Shown: one piece after another, positions 14,490 through 45,394 of the stretch
Numbering within the stretch: position 1 is the stretch's first letter
Layout: every line of letters starts with the position of its first letter
Assembly: GCF_029873635.1 (NCBI RefSeq)
Contig: NC_080422.1
Coordinates: forward strand, 13,733,936-13,797,935
Direction of reading: 5' to 3'
Length of the DNA stretch: 64,000 nt
From: Malania oleifera
Lineage: Eukaryota > Streptophyta > Magnoliopsida > Santalales > Ximeniaceae
Made by a program: the position numbers and the translations under genes
The notes under the pieces: generated by a model
What the model saw: only the letters and a program-made list of their open reading frames with translations
The model's database searches: none
What the model was told of the DNA's origin: nothing

Positions 14490-14547
<58 letters not shown>
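14395..14547. repeat. (ATT)n microsatellite, copia insertion site
   Basis: Interrupted ATT array. The copia at 14553 entered at the end of this array and the array resumes on its far side at 19995-20170. Confidence 0.9.
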
Positions 14548-14548
<1 letters not shown>

Positions 14549-14552
14549 CATT

Positions 14553-14923
14553 TGATGGGTGGAGAGGAACACTCAGTCACTGGATGTGACTGAAACTGAG
14601 TGAGGATAAATACCAAACAAATATATTTCAATCTGGAAAATAATACAGAGGAATTCAAAAGCAAAATCTCTCGCTCACTCACTGACTTTCCACTCTCAAC
14701 ACACCACACTATCACAATTCATACACACACCTATTTATAGTAAAACATACAAAAATATAATCAACAATGGTGGGAATTAGATTTCAACAATTGTGGCTAG
14801 TTTGGTAAGGTTGGTGGCCAAATCTTGCTTAACTTCAATGGAGGTGGGCTGCCGGTTGATGAAGCTACTGTAGTCAATTTTTTTTGCTGCCACTATCCCA
14901 TTGTTCAAGTTTAATCTTCAACA
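14553..14923 (-). repeat. 3' LTR of the copia element
   Basis: 371 bp, TG...CA on the plus strand, matched to 19619-19989 at about 96 percent. The polypurine tract lies at 14924-14933. Confidence 0.92.
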
Positions 14924-14933
14924 TCCCCCCTTA

Positions 14934-19062: not shown

Positions 19063-19618
19063 CGAATTCAATATATAAAAACAGAGAGATGGGGGTTGAT
19101 TTTGGTAAATCTAATGCCACCAATAAATTCAAAAGATTGAAAAACCCTAGGAACCGGTTTTGGTTTGCAAAGAACTAGTCCAAAAATTATTGAACCGGCT
19201 ATAGGAAATTCTGGTGAATTTTTAAACTAACCGGTTTAACTTAACGGCCGTTTAACGGCGTTAATGATCCCGTTATGCCACGTGGCGTCTCTGTGAGTGC
19301 CGCATATCCACTGCTGGGAGCGGGTCAGATGCGGGTCAAAGCTCGGGTACGGATCCGGCTTGCGGGTCGCGGATCCGGGTGGCAAATGGGGCGAAGAAGA
19401 CGCGTGCGGGAGCTTGATCTTCGTGGGAGGCGCGTGGGAGCACGTGCAGAGCCTCTCGGTGTCCATTTGAAACGTGGTTTTCACCATTAGAATCGACTCG
19501 AGTCGAATTTCAAAATGGTATGCTCAATTTGGAATTTTGAGCAAATTCAAAACTAGGAGAAAATCGGATTTTTTCTTTGTTTGGCGTATTTCGGCGTTCC
19601 TGGAGGCTCTAATATCAC

Positions 19619-19989
19619 TGATGGGTGGAGAGGAACACTCAGTCACTAGATGTGACTGAAACTCAGTGAGGATAAATACCAAACAAATATATTTCAATCT
19701 GGAAAATAATACAGAGGAATTCAAAAACAAAATCTCTCGCTCACTCATTGGCTTTCCACTCTCAACACACCACACTATCACAATACATACACACACCTAT
19801 TTATAGTAAAACATACAACAATATAATCAACAATGGTGGGAATTAGATTTCAACAATAGTGGCTAGTTTGGTAAGGTTGGTGGCCAAATCTTGCTTAACT
19901 TCAATGGAGGTGGGCTACCAGTTGATGAAGCTGCTGCAGTCAAATTTTTTTGCTGCCACTGTCCCATTGTTCAAGTTTAATCTTCAACA
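19619..19989 (-). repeat. 5' LTR of the copia element
   Basis: 371 bp, partner of 14553-14923. The primer-binding site, a TGATATTAGAGCC sequence on the minus strand, adjoins it at about 19605-19618. Confidence 0.92.
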
Positions 19990-20613
19990 TCATTTACCAT
20001 CACTATTAATATTAGTATTATTATTACTATTATTGTTATTTATTAATATTATCATCATCATCATTATTAATGTTATTATCGTATTTGTTTTCAGTATTAT
20101 TATTATTATTACTCTCATTATTATTATCATTACTATCATTATTATTATTGTATATTATTATTTATTTTTATGATTAGTTTTAATTTTTTATCCCTATGAT
20201 TTTAATGAGAGGGTATGAGCTTTTGGGCTTCACGTACCTTTAGTTCTAAGGGAATATATATATTACATACATTTTTGTATGATTTATTTATTTTGCATGT
20301 GTATTTGTAAATTCACAAAATGAATAACCTAAAAGACTTTTTAAATTTACTTAGGGATAATTTCATAATTAATTAGGTACCATTCGTAAGAACGGATGCG
20401 TAGGGGGTGCTCGTACCTTCCCCTCGCGTAACCGAACTCTCGATCCTAACTTTGGTAACGCAGACCAATTCTACCCTAGACTGGGTAGTGATTATGTGTT
20501 CTAACCATACTAAAAGGTTAGTGGCTACTCTGATATTCTTATTTTTCCTGAAAATTTAAACCATATTTTTATTTTGCCACCTCAGGGCACCCGGGCACTG
20601 GGACGTTGCAACA

Positions 20614-21897: not shown

Positions 21898-22062
21898 TGT
21901 AAGAACCTGAACCCTGATAATGGGTTTATATATATAAAGAGAGGGACATTTTGGTAAAAGAGCATATTCATCGATTAAGGCACCATTTCGTCGACAAATT
22001 GGGCCGAGTCAAAGGGTTATAAAAGGAAATTTTCATTACTTCTTCATTAAGAAATCTCAATC

Positions 22063-22100
<38 letters not shown>

Positions 22101-23549
22101 CTCTCTCTAGATTTCTTTGCTGATCGTTGATGGAATCTGAAATCTGAAGTTACCACGAGGATCGTGGAAGAATTCTCTACAATTTCTACAGATCGGAATC
22201 TCGTTTCGGAGATTTTTGGGTTTTGGCGTAAAATCGAGGTAAGACTCGGTTTTCATTTCTGATCAGGTAGTTTTGTAGGAAACTGTGTTGTGAGTATATT
22301 CTGTACTGTTGATTGTAGGTTTTGGAAATCGGTTCGCTGTTTAGGGGCCTTGGAGTTCAAGATTTGTTATCTGGGGAAAGATAAAGGGAACTATGTTTAT
22401 ATTGGTTATTTTTGAAATCGGACTCGGTGGAATTGTGGTCCACAATCCTGTGTGTGTGAATCTCGGGTTTTATTGAAAACTATGGGTTTTTCATTATTAC
22501 AGTTTTGGGAAAAAGGGAGCGACAGACTGAATCTCGGGTTTTGTTGAAAACCGAGTATATGTGTGATTTATACTATGATATTGGGATGGTCGTGCCTTGA
22601 CTTTGTTTAAATTGTATTTTTTTGGAAAACCATGATTTAGATTACCAAATGGGTGTAGTTTGTTTGGTTATATGAGCATACATGTGTGTGTGATATGTTG
22701 AAATGCTAGTAGGAATTGGGTTCCGAAATTGTTCCAAGTACTGAGAGTGTCTGGCTCTATATCCGAGGGCGTGTGTTTATCGCTTGCCACGTAGGCAAGA
22801 GTGCCCAGCTCTATATCCAAGGGCGTGAGCCTATATTGGCAGATCAGGCCGAAGGGTGTGGATCCACCAGTTAGCGCCGGTATGATGCCATGAGAGTCTA
22901 GGACTAGCCATGTGCTGGTGGCGCCGTGCTTTGTGGGTTGGCTGGGCCAACGCCAGATTGTCTCGGACGGCTTCGAGCCGAAGGGTGTGACGATACCGGG
23001 ATTGCTGATCATGTGTGTGTGTGCGTGTATGCATTGTGTAAACTAGTACTGGAATGCATTTAACTTCATGTATGTTGTATCATGATAACACTCAAATGTC
23101 ACACACCGATATAAATTGTGTCCTTCCTTACCGAGAGGTGTCTCACCCCTGTTGTACGTACATTTTTATAGGTCCTTCGAGTAATCGGAATTAGCATTCT
23201 GGTGTAGGGAGCGTAGTGGCCGGTGTACTGCGTTTAGCGCTTGGGTAAGTGTTAGGACTTTATTTTTAATAGGTTGCCATTTTGAGATGTTTTGGCGACC
23301 CGTTTGTACGTTTTGATAAAGCCATGTTCTGCTCTTGTATAAACTCTGGTATGGTATTGTATATGTGTATATAGATGACCTTTTTCCACTGCGTACATGA
23401 TTATGATTGGATGTGTTTAGGGTGCCTAGGAACCCCACGGGGTCGGACCCTCATCCACTGTACTATATCTTTGGATGTTTATTAGGTACAGGGACAGGTC
23501 AGGTTACATTCTCACCCCCAGGTCCCATTTTCGGGTTCGGAGCCTGACA
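21898..23549 (+). repeat. 5' LTR of the chromovirus
   Basis: 1.65 kb from TGTAAGAACC to GAGCCTGACA. It has a TATA box TTATAAAAGG (about 22017-22026), a (CT)n block (22066-22108) and the leader phrase GAATTCTCTACAA. An internal near-duplicate contains GCTCTATATCCRAGGGCGTG twice (about 22750-22830). Confidence 0.92.
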
Positions 23550-27772: not shown

Positions 27773-28318
27773 GTGGGTTTGATCTGGGAGAGGATTAGAT
27801 CAACTCAGAGTCAGCAGAAGAGTTACACAGATGTTCGCCGCCTTGATTTAGAGTTTGAAGTGGGAAGTAAGGTATTTCTACCTATTGCTCCAATGAAAAG
27901 GGTGATGAGATTTGGGAGGAAGGGCAAGCTGAGCCCGAGGTATATCGGACCATTTGAGGTACTTGAGCGAGTGGGTCCAGTAGCCTACAGGATTGCATTA
28001 CCTCCAGTACTTTCGAGGGTCCATGATGTGTTTCACGTATCCATGTTAAGGAGGTACGTGTTGGATCCTTCACATGTTATTAGTTATGATGAGTTGGAAA
28101 TTGGGGATACTTTAGCGTATGAGGAAATACCTGTTCAGGTTCTGGACCGTAAAGTTCAGAAGTTTCATACCAAAGAGATACCGTTAGTGAAGGTATTGTG
28201 GCGGAACCACGAGTTTGAGGAAGCCTCTTGGGAACTAGAAACGAAAATATGCCGGAATATCCGCAGTTGTTTTAAGCGCTTGTACATGATCCTACTGTGG
28301 GTTGGGATAGGTGGTTAG
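27773..28318 (+). mobile_element. Chromovirus integrase tail and chromodomain
   Basis: The GPF/Y-type module (LSPRYIGPFEVLERVGPVAY, then VFHVSMLRRYV) is followed by a chromodomain with VKVLWRNHEFEEASWELE. This last domain directs integration of such elements to particular chromatin and defines the chromovirus assignment. Confidence 0.9.
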
Positions 28319-28609
28319 TCGTCGGGAGTGTGTGTGTATTGTGAACTCCTGAGACCGTTGTATATGTAAGCACGGTATTCCTCCTCCATAAGTGAGGGTA
28401 TGTATGTGTATGTGTATGATGGGACTGCGCTGTGGTGATCGCCAATTTGCTCTTGAGTTGTGTCTATGTGTTCGATTGTATGTAGGAATCTGGGAAAAAG
28501 AGATGGCAAATTTCAAGGACGAAATTTTTGTAAGGAGAGGAGATTGTAAGAACCCGAACCGTGATAATGGGTTTATATATATAAAGAGAGGGACATTTTG
28601 GTAAAAGAG

Positions 28610-28809
28610 CAGATTCGTCGACAAAGCCAGATTTCGTCAACAAAGCCTTTGTTCTTCTCGTCGATGAAATTCAAAGACTCGCCGATGAGGAGAAGCCGAG
28701 GAGTCTCGGGAAAATCGGAGATCCCAGATTCGTTGACGAGGCCATTGATTCATCGACGAAGGAACCATTTCGTCGACGAATTGGGCCGGGTCAAAGGGCT
28801 ATAAAAGGA
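28610..28809 (+). promoter_or_regulatory. GTCGAC palindrome array and TATA box in the 3' LTR
   Basis: About seven variants of TCGTCGACGA (for example TTCGTCGACAAA, CTCGTCGATGAA, TTCGTTGACGAG, TTCGTCGACGAA) lie between 28615 and 28780, followed by the TATA box CTATAAAAGG at 28800-28809. That is the position of an LTR promoter's upstream control region; a regulatory role is inferred. Confidence 0.55.
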
Positions 28810-29321
28810 AATTTTCATTACTTCTTCATTAAGAAATCTCAATCTTATCTCTCTCTCTCTCTCTCTAAAACTCTCTCTACTCTCTTTCTCTCTCTAGATT
28901 TCTTCATCGATCGTTGATGGAATCGAAAATCTGAAGTTACCGCAAGGATCGTGGAAGGATTCTTTACAATTTCTACAGATCGAAATTTCATTTCAGAGAT
29001 TTTTGAGTTTTGGCGTAAAATCGAGGTAAGGCTCGGTTTTCATTTCTGATCAAGTAGTTTTATAGGAAACTGTGTTGTGAGTATATTCTATACTATTGAT
29101 TGTAGATTTTGGAAATCGGTTCACTGTTTAGGGGCCTTGGAGTTTGCGATTTGTTATCCGGGGAAAGGTAAAGGGAACTATGTTTATATTGGTTATTTTT
29201 GAAATCGGACTTGGTGGAATTGTGGTCCACGATCTTGTGTGTGTTTTGACTACTCATTTGGGGGGATCTAACGAGGAAAACTATGGGTTTTTCATTATTA
29301 TAGTTTTGGGAAAAAGGGAGC

Positions 29322-29766
29322 TGTTAGGAATATACGAACAAATTCCCGAAACTTGTGAGAAACAAATAGAGATAGAATAACGCCAAAGAAAAATTCAATC
29401 ACACGCACAAGACAATATTTACGTGGTTCGGCAATTTTGCCTACGTCCACGGAGTTGAAGGGATTTCAATATTATCAGGAAAAAAGCACAGAGAGTGCGG
29501 CGATACAATTCTCTCACTCTCGTTTTCTCTCGCGGATACAACCACACAAACCCTAATCACCCGAAAGCACCCTTTTTATATGTTGCGCCTAGGGTTCCGT
29601 TCCGAATGGGCTCCAAAAATTTTCCCCGAGGGCGTTGACCCCCGGACCCCCTCGCAGCCTAAGCCTTCGCTCCATGGACTAAACCTTAGGATAGAAATCT
29701 CTAATTAAACAGAGGTCGGGTCGTCATCCAAATTAAGATACAACTAGGCTCCACAAAAGTCCAACA
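29322..29766. mobile_element. Solo LTR nested in the chromovirus 3' LTR
   Basis: 445 bp from TGTTAGGAAT to GTCCAACA, absent from the otherwise matching position of the 5' LTR (about 22513), which shows the empty site. The flanks GGAGC and AGAGT look like an imperfect 5-bp duplication. It contains ACGTGGTTCGGCAATTTTGC, a phrase common in small plant LTR elements, and a related phrase is at 48015. Confidence 0.8.
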
Positions 29767-30807
29767 AGAGTGACGGGCTGAATCCCGGGTTTTGTTGAAA
29801 ACCGAGTATATGTGTGATTTATACTGTGATATTGGGATGGTCGTGCCTTGACTTTGTTTAAACTGTATTTGTTTGGAAAACCATGATTTAGATTACCAAA
29901 TGGGTGTGGTTTGTTTGGTTATATGAGCATGCATGTGTGTGTGATATGTTGAAATGCTAGTAGGAATTAGGTTCCGAAATTGTTCCAGGTACTGAGAGTG
30001 TTCGGCTCTATATCCGAGGGCATGTGTTTATCGCCTGCCACATAGGCAAGAGTGTCCGGCTCTATATCTAAGGGCGTGATCCTATACCAGCAGATCAGGT
30101 CGAAGGGAGTGGATCCACTAGTTAGCGCCGGTACGATGCCATGGGAGTCTGGGACTAGCCATGTGCCGGTGACGCCGTGCTTCACGGATTGGCTGGGCCA
30201 AAGCTGGATCTTCGCGAACCGGCTTCGGGGCGAAGGGTGTGACGACACTGGGATTGCTGATCATGTGTGTGTGTGCGTGTTTGCACTATGTAAACTAGTA
30301 CTGGAATGCATTTAACTGCGTGTATGTTGTATCATGATAACACTTAAATGCCACACACCGATATAAACCGTGTTCTTCCTTACTAAGAGGTGTATCATCC
30401 CCACTGTACGTACATTTTTACAGGTCCTTCGAGTAACCAGAACTAGCGTCCTAATGTAAGGAGCGTAGTGGCCAGTGTACTGCGTTTAGCGCTTGGGTAA
30501 GTGCTAGGGCTGTATTTTTAATGAGTTGCCATTTTGAGATGTTTTGGGCACCCATTTGTATGTTTTGATAGAGTCATGTTCTACTCTTGTATAGACTCTA
30601 GTATTGTACTGTATATGTGTATATAGATGACCTTTTTTCACTGCATATATGATTATGATTGGATGTGTTTAGGGTACCTAGGAACCCCATTGGGTTGGAC
30701 CCTTATCCACTATACTGTATCTTTGGATGTTTATCAGTTACAAGGACATGTTAGGTTACATTCTCACCCCCCGGGTCCCATTTTCGGGTTTGGGGCGTGA
30801 CACCTGG

Positions 30808-31912
30808 GTCCAGGTGGATTATGATTTATTGGGTTAATTATGATTTTACAGGACTTTTATATGGAGACTATTATTATGGGAAAAAATTATATAGGAAAAT
30901 AAGCAAGTTATTGGGCTTGTTTCTAAGCAGGGCTTGCGAGTGTAGGTTAGCATGTGGGTCTAGGGGCTTGAGGGTTAGGTTGGTCAGTAGGCTTTGCGTG
31001 TCTGCTTGCTTGGGATATGCTCCTTTCCTTTTTCTGACTGAGTACCTGTAATATATGACAACTATGGAAGAAGAAAGACAAAAGTAGCCATACTAACCTT
31101 GTGTCTTCTACTCCTTTGGGTCTTCTTACCCCTACGTTCTCCTCTTTCTATGCTCTTACTCCTATGCTTGGGGCGTTCTATGGGCTAGAATTATGTTCCC
31201 TTTGGTTGGTAGGGGAGCCTTCTGGTTATAGGGCAATGAGCCTCGCAACTTTCTTCTATGAGAATGGTAGGATGTTGCCCACCTCTCTTTTCTTTAGGAT
31301 TTTACCCTCGAAACTTCACCAGCAAACCCTTTTACTTATGATCATATCTCTCAATTATTTTCCCTCTGATTTCTCTCTTTCTTGGTGTGTCATCTACCCT
31401 CTGCAAAGGCCCTTATTTATAGGGTAGGGGCCTCAGCCAAGACAGGCAACAAATAAAACCTTCCTTTTCTAGCACTTTCCTTGTGTTCAATTTTCGCACG
31501 TGCTTTCCTTCCTATAGTAAGAAATCTCATCCTTCTTGTGATTTGGTCGATTCTCTTTATTTATGGGTCATTGGCCTAAGAGTGGGTTGAGATACATGTC
31601 AATCTTGAGATTTTCTCCAATTAATTACAGAATTACTCAAATTTTGCTCCCTTTACTGCTTGATTTCTTTCTGTTTTTGGATGTAGGTACTCGTGAAGAT
31701 GCTTTTGGATATTTTGTGCATTATGCGGAATTTTTGTCCCCCCCCCCCCCTAACTGTGTTTTATGTATTTTTGTATTTCCTTGTGATGTATTTCTTTATA
31801 TTTTCTTTATTATTGATGTATTTCCTTGTATTCTGTATTTCATGTATTTGTACAAAAAATGAATAAAATATGTTATTTTAAAAAGGCTCGGTTAAAATTG
31901 GGTGTCTACATC
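30808..31912 (-). mobile_element. Tat-type LTR, minus orientation
   Basis: Read on the minus strand it opens TGTAGACACCCAATTTTAAC at 31912 and has a clear TATA box CTATAAATAAGG near 31410-31422. The low-coordinate edge is uncertain; part of 30808-31000 may instead continue the LTR split by the chromovirus. Small plus-strand frames here are not genes. Confidence 0.5.
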
Positions 31913-31944
31913 AGTGAGATCAAAATGATGTCCTATATGTCATT

Positions 31945-31947
<3 letters not shown>

Positions 31948-32014
<67 letters not shown>
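31948..32014. repeat. (AT)n microsatellite
   Basis: About 66 bases of uninterrupted AT dinucleotide. Confidence 0.95.
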
Positions 32015-32016
<2 letters not shown>

Positions 32017-32109
32017 GAGTGGCAAACTCTATTCCTCAGAAGAAAAGTATCACAAGAAAAATCATTTGTGATATAGAATCGCATGAATTTGTTAGAATTT
32101 ATTGAGTGA

Positions 32110-32335
32110 TAAAAAGTTAACTAATTCCTCCAAATGATAGGATGACACATGACCTAGATTTTTTTTCATGTGATGATTTTCTTGTAATGATAAATTTAAT
32201 TCCATTTTGTCCGATTCCATTCACTTCATGTTTAGTATGTAGGAATGGAATGATATCAAGCATAATAGAATTAAATTTTCATTTCATTCATTTCCTACCC
32301 CTATTCTATTTCATAAATCAAACATGACAAATTCA
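32110..32335. mobile_element. MITE-like fragment
   Basis: AT-rich and non-coding, with GGAATGGAATGATATC and an end TTCTATTTCATAAATCAAAC, which on the other strand is a common plant MITE terminus. Ends are approximate. Confidence 0.35.
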
Positions 32336-32559
32336 TTCGCACCAAAGATACTATTATCCTATCTTTGGGAAAGATCTTGAGTTTGAATTTGTTGTAAATT
32401 TAGACAAAAAATAATATAAAATAATATTAAAATTTGTCCAAATCCAAATTTAAGGCCCGAAATTCATGCTCCTAAATATTGCCTTAGTATTTTCAAGTTT
32501 ACCAACAATCTTGTTTATTGTGAAATTCATCCCACTTTTTTTTTTCTATCTCAAGGGCA

Positions 32560-32960
32560 AGATTCAAGGAAAGCTCCATTTCAATGAAAAGTCAGAAGAT
32601 TTCTTCTCATTGTTGCATTTGCTTATGTCTAGTTTAGATTATTCTATGCCTCTTAATTTAAAATCAAAAGCATATATATAATCTGCCTTGGGGCAGGGAG
32701 GGGTGTATAACACATTATTCCCTCTTTTGTTTTGTTTTCCTTTATTTTATTTTATTTTATTTTCTTGAGTCTATTGGAGGTTTGTTTGAGTTATACAATA
32801 GAAGAAAGTTCATTTTCTATATAAGCAATAATTGCACGTCCACCTAACCTAATTTCCTAAACTTCAAAGATCTTTAAGACCATATGAGTCTATGATATTA
32901 TGGGCTTAAGTGGTTGCAGAAGATAGGAGAAAATGGATTTTGGGCCTCATGCACCTAAAT
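32560..32960 (+). repeat. Duplicated flank upstream of CPS copy A
   Basis: The stretch matches 63390-64000 over several blocks, including ATCTGCCTTGGGGCAGGGAG, GAGTCTATTGGAGGTTTGTT, TTGCACGTCCACCTAACCTA and CATGGGCTTAAGTGGT-like sequence. It is part of the unit that was duplicated together with the CPS genes. Confidence 0.8.
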
Positions 32961-33171
32961 CTCTCGTGACTGTAATATATATATATTACTCAAAATTGAA
33001 CCATTGCCACCAATTTTATCAACCTCATATATCAATAAAATTTTTACTACTAGTTTTAGTTTTATATATCAATTTTTGTACTTCCATATACATGGGCCAG
33101 TATTAATATTTGTGCAAGTACATTTTTAGGTCAAATATGCTATTTTCTAATAAAAGAAGTGTTGAGCCTCA

Positions 33172-33172
<1 letters not shown>

Positions 33173-33234
<62 letters not shown>
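33173..33234. repeat. (CT)n microsatellite before CPS copy A
   Basis: About 60 bases of CT, ending next to sequence homologous to the 5' leader of copy B. Confidence 0.95.
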
Positions 33235-33236
<2 letters not shown>

Positions 33237-33643
33237 CCTTATAAGCAAGCTCTTCAATTCCTTCCCCCCAGCAGGAAAGCAAAAGAGCATGTGCTTTCTT
33301 ACTAATATTAGCTTCATTAAATGTGTATGACTGCCTCATTGTTTATTCATGCTCTCTATCTATTAGTCATTTAAGATATAAATATACACGCACGTCTACA
33401 GAAATAATCCACTCTCATGTTGAGATTTCAAACCTATTAGTATGGTTTTCTATTAGGAACAGTTCCTTCATACAAAATTTAAAATCTATTAAATTATAAA
33501 ATATTACCAACTCAAACAAACCATAAAAATACTTTGATTTGAATTTTATTAAAATAATTTCATACCTTTTTAACTTTACTACTTTACTTCATGCTTAATG
33601 TTTGTCCATTTTTAATAATAATAATAATAATAAATGTGGGTGG

Positions 33644-33867
33644 GTGTTGGACAGGATACCAAACGACATAATGCATCTACTGCCCACAACACTGCTGTAT
33701 AGCTGCAGTGCTCAGATGGGGAAAAACTCCTAAACCTAAAAATAAATGTGGGTGGGTGTTGGATATGATACCAAAGGACACAATGCATCTAGTGCCCACA
33801 ACACTGCTGTATAGCTGCAGTGCTCAGATGGGTCTTTCCTCTTCTCGCCATCCTCCACTGCCTTTGC
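33644..33867 (+). repeat. 112-bp tandem duplication within a CPS copy A exon
   Basis: GGGTGTTGGACAGGATACC (33642) and GGGTGTTGGATATGATACC (33754) start two copies of the exon encoding IPxDxMHxxPTTLLYS. In both, LLYS runs directly into the CSAQM frame because the bases encoding the following EGM...LDWEKL segment (present in copy B at about 49880-49925) are missing. Confidence 0.8.
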
Positions 33868-34663
33868 CCTCGTCCACAAACCAAAAACCCTAAGTGCCTT
33901 GCTTATCTCAGCAATGCTGCTAAAAAATTTAATGGTGGAGGTAATTAATCAATATTATTTCATTAATTATGAATGCATTTTATTATTCCTGCCCTTGCTT
34001 TTAATTCAATTCAATTCAATTAATTTGTCTTAGTTAATTGATTTCTAACTAATTAAGTTTACTAATGCTTTATTCAACTGAATAGTACCAAATGTTTATC
34101 TAGTGGACTTGTTTGAACGTATTTAGTGTTAGATTACCACTTTACCTAAAAGCTTAAGCTATTAGGTTGTGGGTCAACAATGTATATCAAGTTTTAACAA
34201 TTGGGTCGTGCATCCGTTGGAATGCCTCGGGATTTCTCAATATTTCTAACCGGAGACTACAACATGTGCTCGTTATGTTCATAGATACTTTGTTAATGTG
34301 CTACTATATTCAACACAACTCTTATTACATTTGAATGGAATAAAATAAAATAAAACGTATATAATGAATATGTAAATTAATTAGCAATCAATTTCATTTC
34401 TTTTCTATGTATCGAATACTATCATCAATGTGCCCTTGAATAATAAATTTAGATATTGGACTAAACGAGAAATTTATTGGGCAAGAAATACACCAGTTCA
34501 TGACATAGATGACACAGCCATAGGATTCAAGCTTTTCAGACTACAAGGCTCGATGTCTCCACAGGTAATTTCATTATTTTAAGGGAAAATTAAGTTTGTG
34601 TTCTAAAAATATCTTGAATTTATGTGTGCTCGGGATAATTTTGACGATCAAGAAAGTTGTTAT

Positions 34664-36874
34664 TGTAGAGACCCGAAGAATTATAGTAATTAAAAAATAA
34701 AATAAAAGAGAGAAAAAGAAAATTTTCAAAAGAGGACTCACAAGGTCTCACCAATGAACGCAGGGCGCTCGTCGACGAGCATCCTTCCTGAGTTCGTCAA
34801 CGTGGACACGTGTCTCGTCGATGAGAACTTACCGAGCGGGCTGATTTCGGGGCCTGAAACTCGTCGACGAGGGTTAGATGTTCATCGACGAACTCCCTTC
34901 TGGACTTGTCGATGAGGTGACGTGGCTCGTTGACGAGGCCACGTGGTCAGTCATCTATAAATATGCAAACGATGATTTTTGACGAAAACTTCAGTCTCCC
35001 TTTCCTTTCTCTCTCTAGATTTCGGATTCTCTGCCTTCTCTCTACCATTCCAGCTCCGATTCTCCCCAGTTTGACAATCAAAAGCCACCACAGTGATCCT
35101 ACACCGATTCTCCCCAGTTCGACAACCTAACCAGAGCAGAAATTCGATTTGGGAAATTTGAGAACCATCCCAAAATCAGGGTAAGTGAATTTTTAGGTAT
35201 TTCTAGTATTACCAATTTTATCTGAACTTGAATTTTGTGTTGTGAGGATATATACTGGTGTTTTGTGGAATAAAATTAGGGTATTATATTTTTAGGGTTA
35301 TGGTGTTTTTAGGATCCTGTAGGCATGGTTGAGAAGCCCAACAGATATATTTTCAGAAGCTCAGGTATATTAAAGTTTAAGAAATTGTGAATAGGCAGGT
35401 TCAGAAAATATGAGTGGATAATTTTCTAGGGAAATTCAATGATTCACCAAGGAATTTGCATAAATTATTGCAAGATTTTGAGATTGGTATGCCGAGAGCA
35501 TGAGGGTAGAGTTGGAGGCGAGCCTCCCAGCCAGATAGGTAAGGGAAATATGTTATACTAGGAAATTCAGGAATCTTGACAGCAAAATATGGTATTTGTT
35601 TAACAAGGTGTAGAATATTAATTATATAGTTTTATGGATTTCAGAGCATGTGTTTTATTAGTTATGTGGCCTGAATAGATATTTGTTCAATATAGAGTTT
35701 ATACAAATTTTTTTTCAGAATACCATAACTTATCAGAATTTATGCACAGAGTATGTATTATCAGATTTTACAGAATTATAAATTATAGTGTGTGTGTATA
35801 TATATATATATGGACAGATTATTTATAAAAATATATTTTATAGACATATATTTTGCAACATTTACAGAATTTCATGATTTCCAAAACCATAACACTCATA
35901 CATTACAAATTATTCAATTAGATATTACAGATTATTCAGTCACATATTTCCATTAGATATTACAGTTATTTCAGTCAGATATTTCAATATTTCAGATCAG
36001 ATTTATAGTGTTATGGTTATTTTGAAATCATGATGAGATAGCAAGATAATACATATTTACAGTATTAGACCCTCATGAATTGGATCATTTATCAACAGAG
36101 CATGGTACTGTTGTAATTTTAGATCATTTTTCCAACTACCGTGTCATGGAGTTTGTGTCAGGGCCAGGCTGAGGATTGGTGGTGTGTAGTTCACTAGCTA
36201 CTGTGCCATGGAATTTGTGTCAGGGTCGAGCTGAGGAGGGGTAAAGGTTAAATCATGATATACAGTTTTCTAGGGTATTATCACAGTTACTTCTATGTTT
36301 ATAGATTTACAAAACAGTAGTAGATATTCTATAATACTAGAATTATGAATAAATAGTACTTAGAGATGTTAGTGGTATTTTAAACTATATGAGACGTTTT
36401 TCCACTTAAATTTAGTTTCAGTTATTTGTCAGTATAATATGTTTGTAAGCTCAGTTACAACACACACTAGTACTAGCATATTTCCTCTTATTGAGCATTG
36501 TCTCATCCCAGTGATTTAATATTTTTCAGGTGAACAAGTTAGGCGGGTTGATCAGACTCGCAGATAGAAAGGGCGAGTACACTATCCTATTTGTAGGGTA
36601 GGTTTTAATATATGGTTCTATTGTTGGGTAGCAACCAAGAGTTTTGGGATATATGATACTGGGATGAGGTGTAATTATGTAATTTTGTTTTGGGGAAAAA
36701 CTAGATTCTAGTATTGTAAATATGGATGTACGTTTTTATGTTTCCACTGTTTAGGTATGTAATATCAGAAAGGTTTCCTCTGTGCTCACTCGGGGCCTGG
36801 GAGGTTATAACAGATAATTCAAAGGTATCAAAGTAAATAGGTTAAAAAAATGGTATAATTTTTGGGTCGTTACA
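34664..36874 (+). mobile_element. Solo LTR in a CPS copy A intron
   Basis: 2.2 kb from TGTAGAGACCCGAAG to TTTGGGTCGTTACA, flanked by GTTAT on both sides (34659-34663 and 36875-36879). The intron sequence on each side matches the uninterrupted intron of copy B (50573-50758), which is the empty site. No coding domains remain. The LTR at 41590-43613 is of the same family but opposite orientation. Confidence 0.88.
34765..34964 (+). promoter_or_regulatory. GTCGAC palindrome array and TATA box in the solo LTR
   Basis: Seven variants lie at 34771-34942 (GCTCGTCGACGAGC, TCTCGTCGATGAGA, ACTCGTCGACGAGG, TTCATCGACGAA, CTTGTCGATGAGG, GCTCGTTGACGAGG and one more), followed at once by the TATA box CTATAAATAT (34955-34964). 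Confidence 0.55.
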
Positions 36875-36899
36875 GTTATTTTCATTGTTTAAACTATAA

Positions 36900-36936
<37 letters not shown>

Positions 36937-37020
36937 TTAGTGAAGAGCATATGTATGGTAATTAATTCCATTAATTATCTTTCTAATGATTATCTTTTAT
37001 GCACTTTTGTGATTAGACGT

Positions 37021-37394
37021 CAAAATAAGAGAAGTAGTAAATTGCAAGAAACAAAGAAGGAAAGAATGCAGAATTTTGGAGAGAAAAATTGAAACTCTCA
37101 CTTGTATTATTTCTTACATACAATGTACATCAACTAACTTTGTATATATACACACAAAAATGATAACAGATTAACCAAATAATTTCTAGTTAACAAGAAA
37201 ATAACTCAACAGACTGGCAAACCGTCGATGGTTTCAAGCAAAGAGCAAACTGTCGATAAATTAATTCGTAACTATCGATGGTTTGTGAGACGGTTTTAGG
37301 CAGAGAGCGAACCGTCGATAAATTCATTCATAATAGTTGATGGTTTGTGTCCTGAAGCTGACTTCACCATCTTGGAGTAAATTTAATGCTGCCC
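37021..37394 (-). repeat. 3' LTR of the outer copia
   Basis: It shares with 44960-45165 an ordered set of phrases (AAACCGTCGATGGTTT, TTTGTGAGACGGTTTT, ACCATCTTGGAGT). On the minus strand the polypurine-like GAGGGGCAGC follows at about 37392-37402. The GTCGAC-type motifs (five, 37218-37345) again lie upstream of a TATA-like GTATATATAC in the element's own orientation. Confidence 0.65.
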
Positions 37395-37690
37395 CTCAAA
37401 ATGGAGTGTAAATATTTATAACACCCATCTTGGAAAGAATATTATAGAAAATATTGTAACCGAGGGGCTTAGTCAAAATATCAGCTAATTGAGCAATAGA
37501 AGAAACATGTAATGTTTTCAAAGTGTCTGCCAATAATTTTTCTCTAACAATATGACAATCAATGTCAATATGTTTTGTATGTTCATGAAAAACTAGATTG
37601 GCGGCTATGTGCTAGGCAGCCTCATTGTCATAGAAAAAAAAAAGCACAACTGGTTTATAATGGGTGACAAGTAAATCGTTCAACAAATGT
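37395..37690 (-). mobile_element. Copia RNase H end fragment
   Basis: The minus strand shows typical C-terminal copia RNase H sequence (HTKHIDID, HVSSIAQLADILTKPLG, SKMGVINIYT) running up to the outer 3' LTR. Fossil. Confidence 0.8.
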
Positions 37691-37696
37691 TGTAAC

Positions 37697-37977
37697 TGTA
37701 GAGACCCAGGAAATTTAAATAATAAGAAAATAGGAAAATGAGGAAATTCAGTTTGGTGAAGACCAAACCGTCGATGATTTGGAGAGGGGCATAGAAAATC
37801 GTCGACGGTTTTGTATTTACCGCGAGCCGGTTACAAAAAAAGGGTAAAACGGGCAAGTTAAAAACCCAAACCGTCAACGGTTTTGTAAAGGGTGTAGAAA
37901 ACTGTTGACTGTTTTGTCTGCACTGCTGATTTTAAAAGGAAGTCTCGCGAGCTTCATTTGTTAAATCAAAACAAAAT

Positions 37978-38012
<35 letters not shown>

Positions 38013-39768
38013 AACCCTACAACCCTAATCCCCTTCTCTCTTCATTTTTTGATCCGATTATAGCCTGTTTTGACGATCAAAATCTACCATAAGGTTCGTG
38101 GGGTGATTCTCTACAAATTAACCGGAGCGAATCGTTGAGTTTGGGTTCCAAGGTACTACTCCAAAACGAGGCTAAGTAAGGTATTTTAGGGTTTAATTGT
38201 TAATTTGGAATATATGGGGCCTAGGAAATGCTAAATGAGAAATATTCTAGGGGTTAAGCTGATTAATTTGGGGAAAATATAATTTCAGGGTTTTGAACTT
38301 CGAACGCCGTGGGGTGTGGATTTAGGGTTGTTAGCAGGCCTCTCAGTAAGCCAGGTAAGGGGATAGATTAAGTTAGGTAATTTAGAAATTTATATATGAT
38401 TTAGTATAGTTTTTGGGAATACTAATGTTGAACTAAGGAAACTTTGAAAACAGATTTAATATTATTTTGTCAACAAAATATGTTTTCTCAGGCCAAATAA
38501 TTTATTACAGAGTAGTACTCACTTGTGTGTGGCATGAGTATAAATTTTACTGTAAATAATGATATGTCGGAATATTTTATGAATTCACAGTACAAGCATG
38601 AATTGATGACAGTTTTTAGAAAAACTATAAATAGTACAGAAATTATATTTTCAGTATATTATGATATTTAGCCGGTACAGATGTCGTGATTATTCAATCG
38701 GCCCAGATACCGTGATTATTCAATCGGCCCAGATGCCATGATTATTTAGACGGCATAGATGTCGTAATTATTTAGCCGGCCCAGATGTCGTGAACATATT
38801 TATATATATAACAGTTTATTCAGAAATTATGGTATGACAAATTTTATGCAGAAATATGAAATGAGATATGTTTTAATTATATATTATATGTGTATGTTGG
38901 TTATAGTAAAACTTTGGTATTGTATATAAGGTTAAATAAATCATGGTTTCTACTGCATAGTTGTCATGTATGTATGGATAGGTATATCCCGGGTTTCCTC
39001 TGGGGTCTAGGTTGATTTAGTGTATGTTTTATGGTATCAGAGTTATTATTATTATGTAGTAAAAAAAATATAGCAAAATTTTTTGGGCATTACAATTGTC
39101 GTATCAGAGCCTAGGTTGTTAGGTTCTGTAGACTTTAGTCTACAGCGAAAACAATACCAGAGTATAGGAATAGATTTTGGAGAAAAGAGTTAATGGGGTA
39201 GATCAGGATTTTAGTAAGTCAATGCTGGGAAGTTAAGATGAGCATTTAGGGTTTTGTTCCGCATGCTAGAAGTAGGATTTTTGTGGTGGTTTCCGTGTCT
39301 TTCCTAGGGTGACGATTTTAGGAAGGTCATAGTAAATTATTGTTGGGTTGTGTTTCTAAATTGCTGGACTGAATCTTAAATTGAGAATAAGGACGTCAAG
39401 TTAATTGATGATATGAGATTATAGTTAAATAAATATATTAATTATGCTATGAAGATAGGGTCATCAGATTATGTTTATTTTCGTTTCAGGATGGACCTTG
39501 GGGGTAGCAGTGCTCACGTCAGTGGTTATGATGGTACAAGGCCCTCTCATATGAGCAATGGTGATTCAGACGCAGTTCTACGCAATGTAGCTCAGTAGGT
39601 TATGGCTGAGATTGCGCGGAGTTCTAGGGAGCAGGGAGGCCCTTTAGCAAATCAGGGTTGTACTATAGAGTGGCTCACCAAAATGAAGCCTCCGGCTTTT
39701 TCAAGGAGTACTAACTTGATTGCGGCAGAGAACTAGGTGCAAGAAATGGAAAAGATACTGAAAAAACA
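37697..39768 (+). mobile_element. Truncated gypsy: 5' LTR plus start of gag
   Basis: The LTR (37697-39094) runs from TGTAGAGACCCAGG to GGGCATTACA. A primer-site-like GTCGTATCAGAGCC follows at 39099-39112, then a gag beginning near 39492 with the Tekay-like phrase WLTKMKPPAFSRS. It stops at about 39768 with no pol or 3' LTR. The LTR has a (CT)n block (37980-38012), a 29-bp tandem repeat and four GTCGAC-type motifs (37765-37915) ahead of TTTTAAAAGG. Confidence 0.75.
38668..38795. repeat. 29-bp tandem repeat in an LTR
   Basis: About five units of CGGCCCAGATGCCGTGATTA with small changes. It lies at the same relative place as the 33-bp repeat at 20825 in another LTR. Confidence 0.85.
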
Positions 39769-39779
39769 AACAAACCTTG

Positions 39780-41403
39780 CATAACTCTTAACAATGATAA
39801 CTGTGGGTTAATATATAATAAAATGAGGATAAGCATAGGTAAATGAGGGTCTAAAATCATATATTTCGGGGACTCGTCATAAAAAATCATAATCACTAGT
39901 AGGCTTTCGAGACCATACCTTATAGGGTGTTTTTCCCCCTATTGTAGATGACGGTGGACGGTTGATGAGATGATACGCATATTTAACAACCTCAGGCCAA
40001 AACCTTTTGTCCAACCCAATATTAGACAACATACATCGAACTTTCTCTAGTAAATTCTAATTCATGCGCTTTGCCACCCCAACTAATTTTTTCCACTTAA
40101 GAAAAATATCATGCACTTCATTTTTATGTTTCATAGAATACATCCAAACTCTTCTGGAAAAATCATCAACAAAAGTGACAAAATAATGCATACCACCCAA
40201 TGAAGCAGTTTTAGTAGGTCCCCATACATCTGTGTAAATGTAGTCTAAAATACCTTCAGTCTAGTAGATTGCAGTGTCAAATTTCACTCTAGTCTGTTTC
40301 CCCAGAATATAATGCTCATAAAATTCAAGTTTACATACCTTTGCACCCTTCAACAAGCCTTGCTTAGCCAATTGTTGCAAAGGTTCTTCACCTACATGTG
40401 TCAACCGCATATGTCATAACCTGATTGTATTTGAAATTACATTTTTCTCATAAACAACAGCTTCTAGGTCAATCACTGTACTACCTTGTAAATAATACAA
40501 GTTATTTTTTCTTAAACCTTTCATCACCACAAGCGCACATGATTTAATCTTTAAGGTTCCATTCTTCAAAGTAGTAAACCCTTTAAATTCTAAAGCACTC
40601 AATGAAATTAGATTTTTATTTAGGCTTGGAACATACCTAACATTAGTCAAGGTTTTAATAGTTCTATCTTTACATTTCAACTGTATTGATCCTATTCTAG
40701 TTGTTTTACAGGTATTATCATTTCCCATAAAAACAACCCCACCATCTATTTCTTTAAAATTAGAAAATCATTCCCTATTGGGACACATGTGATAGGAACA
40801 ACCAGAATCCAAAATCCGCTCACCAAAATAGTGTAACGAAGATGTTCCAACAAGAGAATAATCTAACTCACTTCCATCATGCTTGGCTATATTGGCATTA
40901 GAATGTACTTTGCTCTTATTCTTCTGCTGCAATTTAGGGCAATCTTTCTTCCAATGCCCTTTCTCATGACAAAATACGCATTCATCTTTAGCATGTCTCC
41001 TATGAGATTTACTTCTCCTTCTAGGTTTGTGATTCTGAGAACGTACCCTTATTGTTAGTGCTTCTATTTTTTCCTTATGGACCCTCTGATCCTTCTTTTT
41101 GTATTCAGTACTAATCAATGTAGTACAAACAGCATCAAAAGTAACTTTATCTTTCCCATACAATAAAGTGGTAATCAGATGTTCATAATCACCAGGGAAA
41201 GAATTTAGTAACAATATGGTTTTATCCTCATCTTTCACATTTTCATCCAAATTTAACAAATCAGCCAAAATTTTATTGAAAGCATTTATGTGGTCATTTA
41301 TCGAAATACATGGTTGATACTGGAAGCAAAACAATTTCTTTTTCAAATAGAGCCTATTTTTCAAACTCTTCATCATAAATGTATCTTCCAATGTTTTCCA
41401 CAA
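39780..41403 (-). mobile_element. Copia gag, protease and integrase fragment
   Basis: The minus-strand gag has LYLKKKLFCFQYQ and a CCHC knuckle CVFCHEKGHWKKDC. The protease active site appears as ILDSGCSYHMC. The integrase part includes IYTDVWGPTKTAS and the HYFVTFVDDFSR core at about 40170-40240. The gag resembles Tnt1/Tork-type elements. Fossil with several breaks. Confidence 0.85.
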
Positions 41404-41589
41404 TTTTTTTTATAGATATCTCCCTCATAACACAATATTTCTAATTTTTAGTGAGACATAGACGAATTGTACCACATGACTAACAATTGATCTTTACCCA
41501 ATCTCTGTCACCCATATCCACTGGTTTATCATCCAAAGCAATATCTAATTCTTGCTAATATAGGATGTCGATCATCTTACATTGCCATA

Positions 41590-42132
41590 TGTAACGACCT
41601 GCTATTTAATTGGGTTTTTTTTATTTTTTATACTATAACATTTAAAATGTTCTGATACCACACTAGATTAAACCCAATCATCAACCTAAGCAGCGAGAAG
41701 CAGAAATCAAATAAACATAACCATATGTAATTATATAAAATATCAGAGTGCTAAAATGTTTCCTAATATATACATATATAACTGTTCCCCAAAATACCCA
41801 CGACTAGCTAGGGCTATACAAAAATACTCCAAAACAATTACTCACTCTCTATTGACAGGGCAGTACTAAAACCCCTCTACCTGCGAGCCTGATCTGCTTG
41901 TCTACCTGGATCACCTGAAAAATGTTAAATTAATTGGGATGAGCCAACGCTTAGTAAGAAGAAATATGCTATTGGTAGTGTGTGGCAAATGAGTTACAAT
42001 ACTGTGAAAATCTATTACTATATAATCATGTATCACTGAATATGTAAAGTACAATACCAGTAATATAAATCATCATCTTTTATCTGTTGCTTAACTTTTT
42101 TATACTTTAGGCTTCTACTGAAAATACTTCTA

Positions 42133-42164
<32 letters not shown>

Positions 42165-43613
42165 TCTGTCTCTATAAATCTATATAAACATAGTAATAAC
42201 TGAAATCTTCCCTGTGAATAATTGTGTCATGATTTAACCCCTCATGACAGGGTTGTGCGGCCCGTAGGCGGGATCTACCCTGGCTGGCCAACTAGGAATA
42301 GAGCACTATACTCCATAGGTCTGATCAGCCCTCCTCTACCCATATCTGATGGGGAGTCTGTCCACTTGTGGGCTCTATGCGATCGACCTTTATACCGCGT
42401 ATTATCTGAATATGTGGTTGCACTCTATATACTGTATGTAGCTACGGTACCGTGCTCTGTAACTGTATGGTCCAACAGAGTCTGATACTATATAATACAT
42501 CTCTATATACAACTATTTGTTTTACCATGATTCTGTAATAACTGTATAAACCATAACGCTGTAGAAAACTGTATCTATATTAACCGTGTTTCTGTAATTA
42601 ACTGTAAATTTGTATGTCATGGTACTGTAAAACTGTATAATCATGGTATTTCTGTAATTGCTGTAAAATACATTCACTGTCTGCATATTCTGTAAAACAC
42701 ATCTCAGAAAAATACTGTAAAGCATGTTTCTATACTATATCTATATTCTCAAGTCACACAGTAATTTTAAAACATATTAATCATATTTGACAAATTGTAT
42801 AAATCTCTGTTGTGAATAATACTCTGGTAGAATATATATAAATTTATACTAAAATCATACTCGAATAACCTAGCATAGCCTATTTCCCTTACCGAATTTT
42901 TGCTAAAACCCTCCTACTGTAACGGGTCCTACACTCGCAGGGTTCTCCACTCAACACCCTGAAAACCATAAATCTTAGAACAAAACATTACTATTTCTAC
43001 GTCTATTACATTTCTTACAACTGTTGAAAACCCAAATTCCAAATAAAAGAACTTACCCTAGATTTGGGATGAATTTCGACTTCGTTCCACCAACGATCCA
43101 CTCCGGCAGACTTGAAGAGAACTCCGTAAAGAGTGTCATGGTAGCCTCAGATCGTCGATCTGAAAAACAACGGGGCCGAAATCGAAGAGAGAAGAGGGAG
43201 AGGTCGTAAGAGAGAAGAGTGAGAGAGTCTGCGCTGAAATTCTGCGTCAAAACTTTGTTTAAGCACTATTTATACTGCGGGATTCGTCAACGAGCCACGT
43301 CACCTCGTCGACGAGTCCTATAGGAAGTTAATCGACGAACCTGCACCTTCATCGATGAATTTCAGACTTCTCAAAAATCCTCTCGGTATCTTCTCACCAA
43401 CAAAATGGGACCTCATCGACAAGATCCCAAAGTACCCTCGTCGACAAAATACCTATGTTCGTTGACGAGGCCTGGAAAATTTTCTTGGAAATTTTTCCTC
43501 CAAAATGCAATGTCGTCGACGAAGTCAGCTGCCTCCTTCTATTACTATTTCCATTTCTCTCCCTCGTTATTATTTAAATACTATTGTTCTTCGAGTCACT
43601 ACACTATACCAAA
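41590..43613 (-). mobile_element. Solo LTR (same family as 34664), minus orientation
   Basis: On the minus strand it runs from TGTAGTGACTCGAAGAA (43613) to GGTCGTTACA (41590), flanked by CCATA (41585-41589) and CTATA (43614-43618), a near-perfect 5-bp duplication. It contains no coding domains. An (AT)n block is at 42135-42165. Confidence 0.8.
43262..43530 (-). promoter_or_regulatory. GTCGAC palindrome array and TATA box (minus)
   Basis: Eight variants (CCTCGTCGACGAGT, GTTCGTTGACGAGG, GTCGTCGACGAAGT, ATTCGTCAACGAGC and others) at 43272-43528 are followed, on the minus strand, by AGTATAAATAG (about 43265-43275). The arrangement is the same as at 34765-34964. Confidence 0.55.
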
Positions 43614-44959: not shown

Positions 44960-45165
44960 TACAGGGTAAATCGTAAACGATTTCAGGCATAGAGCAAACC
45001 GTCGACAATTTCTAACAAAGAGCAAATCGTCAATAAATCCATTCGTAACCATCGACAGTTTGTGAGACGGTTTTCGACAAAGAGCAAACCGTTGATAAAT
45101 TCATTCATAACCATCAACGGTTTGTATTCTAAAGCTGACATCACCATCTTGGAGTGTAAATTTAA
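44960..45165 (-). repeat. Remnant of the outer copia 5' LTR
   Basis: Matches 37200-37394 in order, including five GTCGAC-type motifs. It adjoins CPS copy A exon sequence at 45166. Confidence 0.65.
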
Positions 45166-45394
45166 TAGTCGTGTTTGTACATTTTGAGAGCGATGGGGAC
45201 TTCTTCTGCTTCGCAGAGCAGTCAACACAGGCGGTCACCAGAATGTTTAACTTGTATAAAGCTTCTCAATTGGTGTTTTCGGGAGGGAAGATACTTGAGG
45301 ATGCCAATAATTTCTCATGCAAATTTTTAAAGAAAAACAAGTTACCAAACAGCTCCTTGATAAGTGAATTATAATCAAAGACTTACCTGGGGAG
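45166..45394 (+). pseudogene. CPS copy A exon after the DIDDTA exon
   Basis: It encodes VHFESDGDFFCFAEQSTQAV, then TRMFNLYKASQLVFSGGKIL, ending before a GTATGT donor (45395). It corresponds to the block containing FFCFAGQS..AVTGMFNLYRA in CPS enzymes. Near 45335 the frame is lost, so the LLDKWIIIKDLPGE segment seen in copy B is out of frame here. This is the last surviving piece of copy A; the homologous intron continues for only about 50 bases. Confidence 0.85.

Follow-up and report, generated by a model that had tools for sequence, protein, structure and literature searches.

Why do the long terminal repeats (LTRs) of apparently unrelated retrotransposons carry similar arrays of short palindromes immediately ahead of the TATA box? 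The question is raised by a stretch of 64,000 nucleotides from the genome of Malania oleifera (C6:13733936-13797935, hereafter the window; the genome comprises 1.49 Gb, with 13 large contigs). An earlier note on this stretch had described such arrays in both gypsy and copia LTRs, and had proposed either a binding site for a shared host factor or a module that moved between elements. The observation is partly confirmed and the interpretation partly supported. The palindromes whose LTR clusters are at issue are denoted by the pattern label NNGTCGACNN, and three flavours are named: class I (TCGTCGACGA), class II (AAACCGTCGACGGTTT) and class IV (CGGTCGACCG). Our preferred reading, held with moderate confidence, is that the arrays serve in U3 as enhancers on which a dimeric host factor, or a family of such factors, would act, and that several retrotransposon lineages gained them independently. 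The counts below refer to the whole genome, to the window, or to a 234-kb sample consisting of 17 preset 10-kb stretches and the window; loci outside the window carry numbers beginning with L (L031 and L037 overlap and are one locus).

The window contains five exact TCGTCGACGA sites; allowing one mismatch raises the count to 17 and allowing two to 36, and 26 of these 36 are inside the LTRs that the earlier note had named. Arrays of seven core sites each precede the TATA box, in the element's own orientation, in the LTRs starting at 28545 and 34664 and in the minus-strand LTR starting at 43604 (Table 1). The LTR at 37697 and the copia LTRs at 37021 and 44960, said to carry the same TCGTCGACGA-like array, contain mainly the second flavour, AAACCGTCGACGGTTT. 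One site of the 37697 LTR nevertheless reads TCGTCGACGG, and the array is followed by a weak TATA-like TTTTAAAAGG. A TATA box had been claimed after every array; the 44960 LTR, which is a fragment of the copia LTR at 37021, has no TATAWA within 120 bp.

Genome-wide, exact TCGTCGACGA is present in 132,361 copies, compared with 1,383 for the reversed word. The matched control TCGACGTCGA, also a palindrome, with the same ten letters and the same three CpGs, has 433 copies, making TCGTCGACGA about 300 times commoner. The genome count of TCGTCGACGA is partly coding, as one exact copy was found within the gypsy integrase frame (ADTRRRALEF) at L031/L037, near 311.2 kb of C1. The earlier note had called for a test of enrichment upstream of TATA boxes, and this enrichment is observed. 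The order TCGTCGACGA-N4..34-TATAAATA occurs 9,684 and 8,407 times on the two strands (18,091 in total) and the opposite order, TATA before the array, 49 and 41 times (90 in total), an approximately 200-fold preference; these are counts of pairs, so that a TATA box behind two exact sites is counted twice. Among 21 sampled arrays of at least four sites, TATAWA was observed within 60 bp on one side only in 14 and on both sides in two, whereas at random places it is seen on exactly one side 17% of the time. The 21 loci were partly picked for holding exact TCGTCGACGA, and the genome-wide order counts are the firmer test. The distance from the last palindrome to the TATA box is 9 bp in eight of the 21 arrays and 19-21 bp in five. 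Each of these arrays has 5-9 sites. Together they contain 46 exact sites and 62 with one mismatch, and in 56 of the latter the mismatch is a C-to-T or G-to-A change at CpG, in line with the CpG decay suggested in the earlier note.

The earlier note had also held that the rest of these LTRs differs. This is wrong for the gypsy LTRs, which have the LTR start and non-palindromic words within the array in common. We aligned 17 U3 segments from 26 arrays, picked for a readable LTR start, so that the shared start is partly selected for; identities were computed for 14 of the 17 rows, leaving out three class II rows. A related spacer word follows one of the palindromes in all 14 class I rows (GATACCGAGAGG in the 43604 LTR), and a bZIP-like RGTGACGTGK is found between the last two palindromes in nine of the 14. 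Class I spacings cluster at 19-21, 24-25 and 44-47 bp. The identity between these LTRs is 82% in palindrome columns and 54% in spacers, a comparison that is somewhat circular, the columns having been partly picked by core match. Based on the shared spacer words, the TATA distance, the repeated spacings and the column identities, we take the class I gypsy arrays (28545, 34664, 43604) to be one homologous U3 segment inherited by descent. An alignment placing the arrays in one homologous LTR segment was the outcome that the earlier note had set against its own interpretation, and it is what we find for the TCGTCGACGA gypsy arrays.

The carriers of class I are Ty3/gypsy elements wherever coding sequence was checked, namely in the integrase piece upstream of the 28545 LTR and in L018 (Pfam SH3_Tf2-1, 7.9e-24). 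They are probably chromoviruses, although the chromodomain call is weak, the Pfam Chromo match in the integrase piece ahead of the 28545 LTR being at 0.047, below the cut-off. Among class II carriers, L037 has a tail that looks like a chromodomain by eye. An ACGT-core bZIP-like word, GGTGACGTGG, is present between the last two palindromes at window positions 34916-34946 and in other class I LTRs, and the 34664 LTR has CACGTGG ahead of its TATA box. Exact helical phasing of the palindromes is not claimed, as two-turn phasing fits only part of the spacings.

Class II was counted by AACCGTCGACGGTT, the 14-bp core of AAACCGTCGACGGTTT, which has 2,630 copies, compared with four for the reversed control. 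Class II arrays often have about four copies each. The enrichment upstream of TATA is weaker than for class I, with 244 places before TATAAA and 65 in the opposite order, several of the 65 coinciding in coordinates with some of the 244. To group the carriers, 22 pieces were compared with the palindromes masked: 18 loci that cover the first 20 listed places on C1, and four pieces from the window or the sample. They fall into ten groups, a number that is inflated, as masking also parts two copia pieces of the window whose unmasked identity is 83%. The gypsy-type group consists of the 37697 LTR, L030, L036, L037, L040, L051 and L053; the window 37-kb copia piece fell into it only through a 300-bp overlap of two window slices. 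A second group, of uncertain superfamily, contains L046, L048 and L054, and L045 is similar to it by eye, although unlinked. The remaining groups are copia-type (L047, L049, L055), a pair (L044, L050) and six singletons.

The superfamily of some carriers can be read from the adjacent coding sequence. Inspection by eye showed gypsy integrase tails ahead of the LTRs in L036 and L037. It also showed copia RNase H ends directly ahead of the window 37-kb LTR and of the one in L055 (translations of window 37381-37720, minus strand, and of L055 1-420), and by this criterion the class II carriers at 37 kb of the window (minus strand) and at L055 are Ty1/copia. At L055 the RNase H end is about 100 bp ahead of the LTR, without a long linker. 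Class II is thus common to gypsy and classic copia LTRs. In L039, class II palindromes are found with no obvious LTR start nearby, and one site is followed by TATAAA.

Class IV is represented by 37,462 genomic copies of CGGTCGACCG, compared with 256 of the reversed control, and seven arrays of 6-13 GGTCGACC-like sites were found. The carrier in L011 is a copia element by Pfam (RVT_2, gag_pre-integrs). Its junction of LTR and primer-binding site agrees with that of Sireviruses (CA-ATTGG-TATCAGAGC) in 15 of 16 letters and is preceded by a C run. The junction alone is non-diagnostic, as L047, a copia-type LTR of class II, also has 15 of the 16 letters, without the C run. The distance from the array to the following TATATATA is 132 bp in L011, 128 bp in L018 (5685) and 123 bp in L020, and on one strand of L013 it is 131 bp; TATATATT is found at 108 bp in L018 (2228). 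The L015 array has TATA words 69-78 bp away on both sides. The class IV word is identical to the repeated motif given for a Vitis Sirevirus in Table 3 of Bousios et al. 2010 (PMC2829016). At about 5215-7480 of L018, the TCGTCGACGA array of a gypsy LTR apparently encloses a Sirevirus-type LTR that itself has a GGTCGACC array, and in L001 the two kinds of arrays stand side by side.

What the flavours have in common is the core GTCGAC. In the 234-kb sample, the most enriched of the 256 palindromic 8-mers are CGTCGACG (22 observed, 0.11 expected) and GGTCGACC (20 observed, 0.53 expected), and GTCGAC (82 observed, 11 expected) has the highest ratio among the 64 palindromic hexamers. The main evidence is a scan of the same sample for clusters of the 176 palindromic 8-mers with at least four G+C. 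Nine clusters were found for CGTCGACG, three of them in the window, and eight for GGTCGACC, none in the window and some arrays being counted twice. The next word, TCGATCGA, has three clusters, within the same GGTCGACC arrays, and four other words have two each. Shuffled non-palindromic words give a mean of 0.13 clusters, and the top scores among them, 6 and 5, belong to words containing GTCGAC. The families therefore share the GTCGAC core, not palindromy in general. Further flavours with this core are possible: ACTAGTCGAC-like and ACTTGTCGAC-like palindromes occur in other repeats, at about 9943 in L022 and 359-606 in L027.

Similarity outside the palindromes was assessed for 34 U3 pieces with all GTCGAC-like sites masked, at an E-value of 1e-3; the set did not include the 44960 fragment, L039, L040, L041, L050, L052 and several class I arrays that were truncated or had no LTR start. 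None of the 150 pairs between 25 gypsy-type pieces (four of them of uncertain superfamily) and six copia-labelled pieces matched in this insensitive test, L038 and L044 being labelled copia by the look of the LTR only. The same test gave no match in 93 pairs between class IV and the other classes, with the same insensitivity. Of the 90 gypsy pairs that combine class I with class II, nine matched.

On our preferred reading, the arrays would act within U3 as enhancers, upstream elements of the LTR promoter. Each palindrome would most likely be bound by a host protein in the form of a homodimer, or by members of a small family of paralogues, which would recognize the core GTCGAC but favour different bases in the 2-5 positions flanking it: TCG..CGA, AACC..GGTT or CGG..CCG. 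Several sites shortly ahead of the TATA box could then activate retrotransposon transcription cooperatively. Gypsy elements (probably chromoviruses), classic copia and Sirevirus-type copia would have gained their sites independently, since these lineages are proposed to use the same host factor. Within gypsy, the array would have been inherited, after which one branch switched flavour at all sites. A plant protein that turns the elements on would probably dock at the palindromes; protein binding, the dimeric state, activation, independent gain and the identity of the factor are what we infer from the arrangement. The host factor of the earlier note survives in an altered form, as a GTCGAC core with other flanks in gypsy, classic copia and Sirevirus-type LTRs that have no detected homology outside the palindromes in the insensitive masked test; the class I gypsy arrays taken together are one inherited segment. 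A more specific version, which we put forward tentatively, is that a single host protein family recognizing a GTCGAC core may have brought the same array into the promoters of gypsy, classic copia and Sirevirus-type copia elements, at least three lineages in all, with flanks tracking paralogue preference and the Sirevirus flavour found also in grapevine.

Several observations weigh against this reading. TATAWA is absent within 60 bp on either side in five of the 21 sampled class I arrays, the order bias of class II is only 3.8-fold, and for class IV the placement was read in six arrays. The circularity of the column identities counts here, and repeat turnover could likewise hold the palindrome copies alike. 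The masked comparison recovers no more than 29 of the 105 class I pairs whose homology is evident from the alignment, and it unlinks the two similar window copia pieces; being so insensitive, its lack of a gypsy-copia match is weak evidence against exchange. The arrays form strong RNA hairpins, which an enhancer does not need. Finally, no known plant factor was matched to the core, a literature search for CGTCGACG in combination with DNA affinity purification sequencing (DAP-seq) having found no paper. The insensitivity of the comparison and the occurrence of a maize palindrome in both Copia elements and Helitrons (PMC10760457) lowered our confidence and raised that in module transfer and in a role of the hairpins.

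One possibility is that common descent alone explains the arrays, as one LTR segment of a single multiplied gypsy group, the copia likeness being incidental. The 14 class I rows indeed share the spacer word, the array layout and mostly the TATA spacing, spacings of about 20-21, 24-25 and 46 bp are repeated, and the nine of 90 masked matches join class I to class II gypsy U3s. Common descent stands for the class I gypsy arrays alone. As an account of all arrays it is unlikely, as coding sequence supports classic copia as a carrier of class II, the Sirevirus-type class IV pieces, like the copia ones, show no masked similarity to gypsy (0/93 and 0/150, insensitive as noted), and what recurs is the GTCGAC core. 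Just as doubtful, or slightly more so, is that one element passed a short cluster of palindromes to another, through recombination, template switching or nested insertion, and that the cluster then spread. The presence of class II in both gypsy and copia is consistent with such transfer, as are the nesting of elements in one another's arrays (the Sirevirus-type LTR apparently interrupting a class I array in L018) and the maize palindrome shared by Copia elements and Helitrons. On the other hand, the spacers between palindromes give none of the 150 possible gypsy-copia matches in the insensitive test, and copy number and spacing vary between families.

U3 is also the 3' end of the RNA, and the hairpins may act in RNA or feed small-RNA silencing, as proposed for maize Sireviruses, whose palindromes are small-RNA hotspots according to PMC5311732 and PMC10760457. 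Fold z-scores are below -2 in 16 of 16 class I, seven of eight class II and four of four class IV arrays, compared with four of 30 random 200-mers, and single tool folds of arrays gave z of -4.79 and -3.24. However, palindromes fold by nature, under every model, and folding thus cannot separate the rivals. Pairing alone does not need an identical GTCGAC core across families. Compensatory change in decayed palindromes shows no excess either: mirror-pair changes were observed in four of 29 doubly decayed sites, with about 5.8 expected by chance, although most of this decay is post-insertion. We regard an RNA-level role as the source of the arrays as less likely still, whereas a small-RNA effect of the maize type, by analogy, is possible as a second consequence of them. 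Chance and base composition are ruled out as the source by the matched-palindrome control, with its 300-fold excess, and by the TATA order test. The fixed place in LTRs ahead of the TATA box also argues against an insertion-site preference for palindromes; a slight preference of LTR retrotransposons is reported in PMC6911290, but this effect is weak and was described for short target-site palindromes. Together these explanations are highly improbable.

The nearest known match is the repeated motif (RM) of Sireviruses. The RM boxes of PMC2829016 are palindromic, CpG-rich and present in many LTR copies upstream of the TATA box, with extra copies upstream of the env-like gene; they have dyad symmetry and at least eight copies per element including the linker. 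The paper calls them Sirevirus-specific, and 12 of its 13 motifs have a CGG-CCG signature, Tnd-1 being without it. The arrays described here have the same symmetry and the same placement just upstream of TATA (for class I, in the order counts above). Copy numbers per array are 5-9, often about 4, and 6-13 in classes I, II and IV, respectively, whereas the paper counts per element. The CGG-CCG signature is present in class IV CGGTCGACCG and absent from the window classes I (TCGTCGACGA) and II (AACCGTCGACGGTT), and the carrier is a Sirevirus for class IV in L011, not for class I, which has a gypsy integrase C-terminus. The window arrays thus share place and form with the RM boxes and differ in signature and carrier. 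Unlike the RM boxes, our arrays extend to LTRs of gypsy and classic copia elements, where TCG..CGA or AACC..GGTT surrounds the GTCGAC core.

The maize Sirevirus palindromes (Bousios et al. 2016, as cited in PMC5311732 and PMC10760457) form clusters in the LTR cis-region, for which a strong secondary structure is predicted. Among the structured motifs of Helitrons, the maize palindrome is reported to be the most frequent (PMC10760457), and its occurrence in both Copia and Helitrons is a precedent for sharing between element types. The maize motif, CACCGGACNNNGTCCGGTG, lacks the GTCGAC core, and gypsy LTR arrays are not mentioned in the available parts of these two papers. Short cis-elements similar to Tnt1 box I, as described in the accessible part of PMC2829016, are likewise repeated or palindromic activator sites in U3, but they form arrays of two or three motifs, and no sharing across superfamilies is described there. 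No report of palindrome arrays in gypsy LTRs was found among the papers listed from the open-licence literature, by titles and starts of abstracts, subscription journals being mostly outside this search, and there was no LTR paper by title among the matches listed for exact TCGTCGACGA.

Palindromic LTR boxes were presented as a Sirevirus trait, and the authors of PMC2829016 could name no common binding factor for them. The occurrence of one core also in LTRs of gypsy and classic copia elements, with more than 130,000 exact copies of one flavour, provides a precise DNA bait for finding the factor. It is also relevant to the question of whether a single host regulator could govern a large part of retrotransposon transcription in a large plant genome.

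Table 1. Positions of the palindrome arrays and associated features in the window.
Feature	Position	Strand	Remarks
Class I array, 7 TCGTCGACGA-like palindromes	28615..28779	+	gypsy 3' LTR starting at 28545
TATA box of the 28545 LTR	28800..28807	+	
Partner 5' LTR of the 28545 element	21898..22520	+	self-blast: 21898-21998 to 28545-28644, 21966-22520 to 28748-29321
Gypsy integrase, C-terminal piece, ahead of the 28545 LTR	27773..28318	+	Pfam SH3_Tf2-1, 3e-26
Class I array, 7 palindromes, spacings 25, 21, 46, 21, 24 and 21 bp	34769..34936	+	gypsy LTR starting at 34664
TATAAATA of the 34664 LTR	34956..34963	+	
Class I array, 7 core sites	43284..43522	-	gypsy-type LTR, start ~43604, end ~41592, ends by eye
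TATAAATA of the 43604 LTR	43267..43274	-	
Class II array (AAACCGTCGACGGTTT type), 4 copies	37765..37915	+	gypsy-type LTR starting at 37697
Class II array of the copia LTR	37217..37350	-	copia RNase H end directly upstream
TATATATA box of the 37-kb copia LTR, downstream of the array	37142..37151	-	
Copia LTR fragment, array without TATA box	44994..45166	-	83% identical to 37217-37387; beside copia pol debris

The window also contains a copia element with 96%-identical end repeats at 14545-14925 and 19612-19991 and long open frames between them, where a GTCGAC array was not seen. The array of the 28545 element is mostly deleted in its 5' LTR, where one near-exact palindrome remains at 21988. About 100 bp of the array have been lost there between two palindromes, whereas the 3' LTR (28545-29321) retains them; an array can thus shrink by deletion between repeats. 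The 3' LTR of the same element is split by an insertion beginning with TGTTAGGAATATACGAAC, at about 29322-29767, the matches to the 5' LTR ending at 29321 and restarting at 29768.

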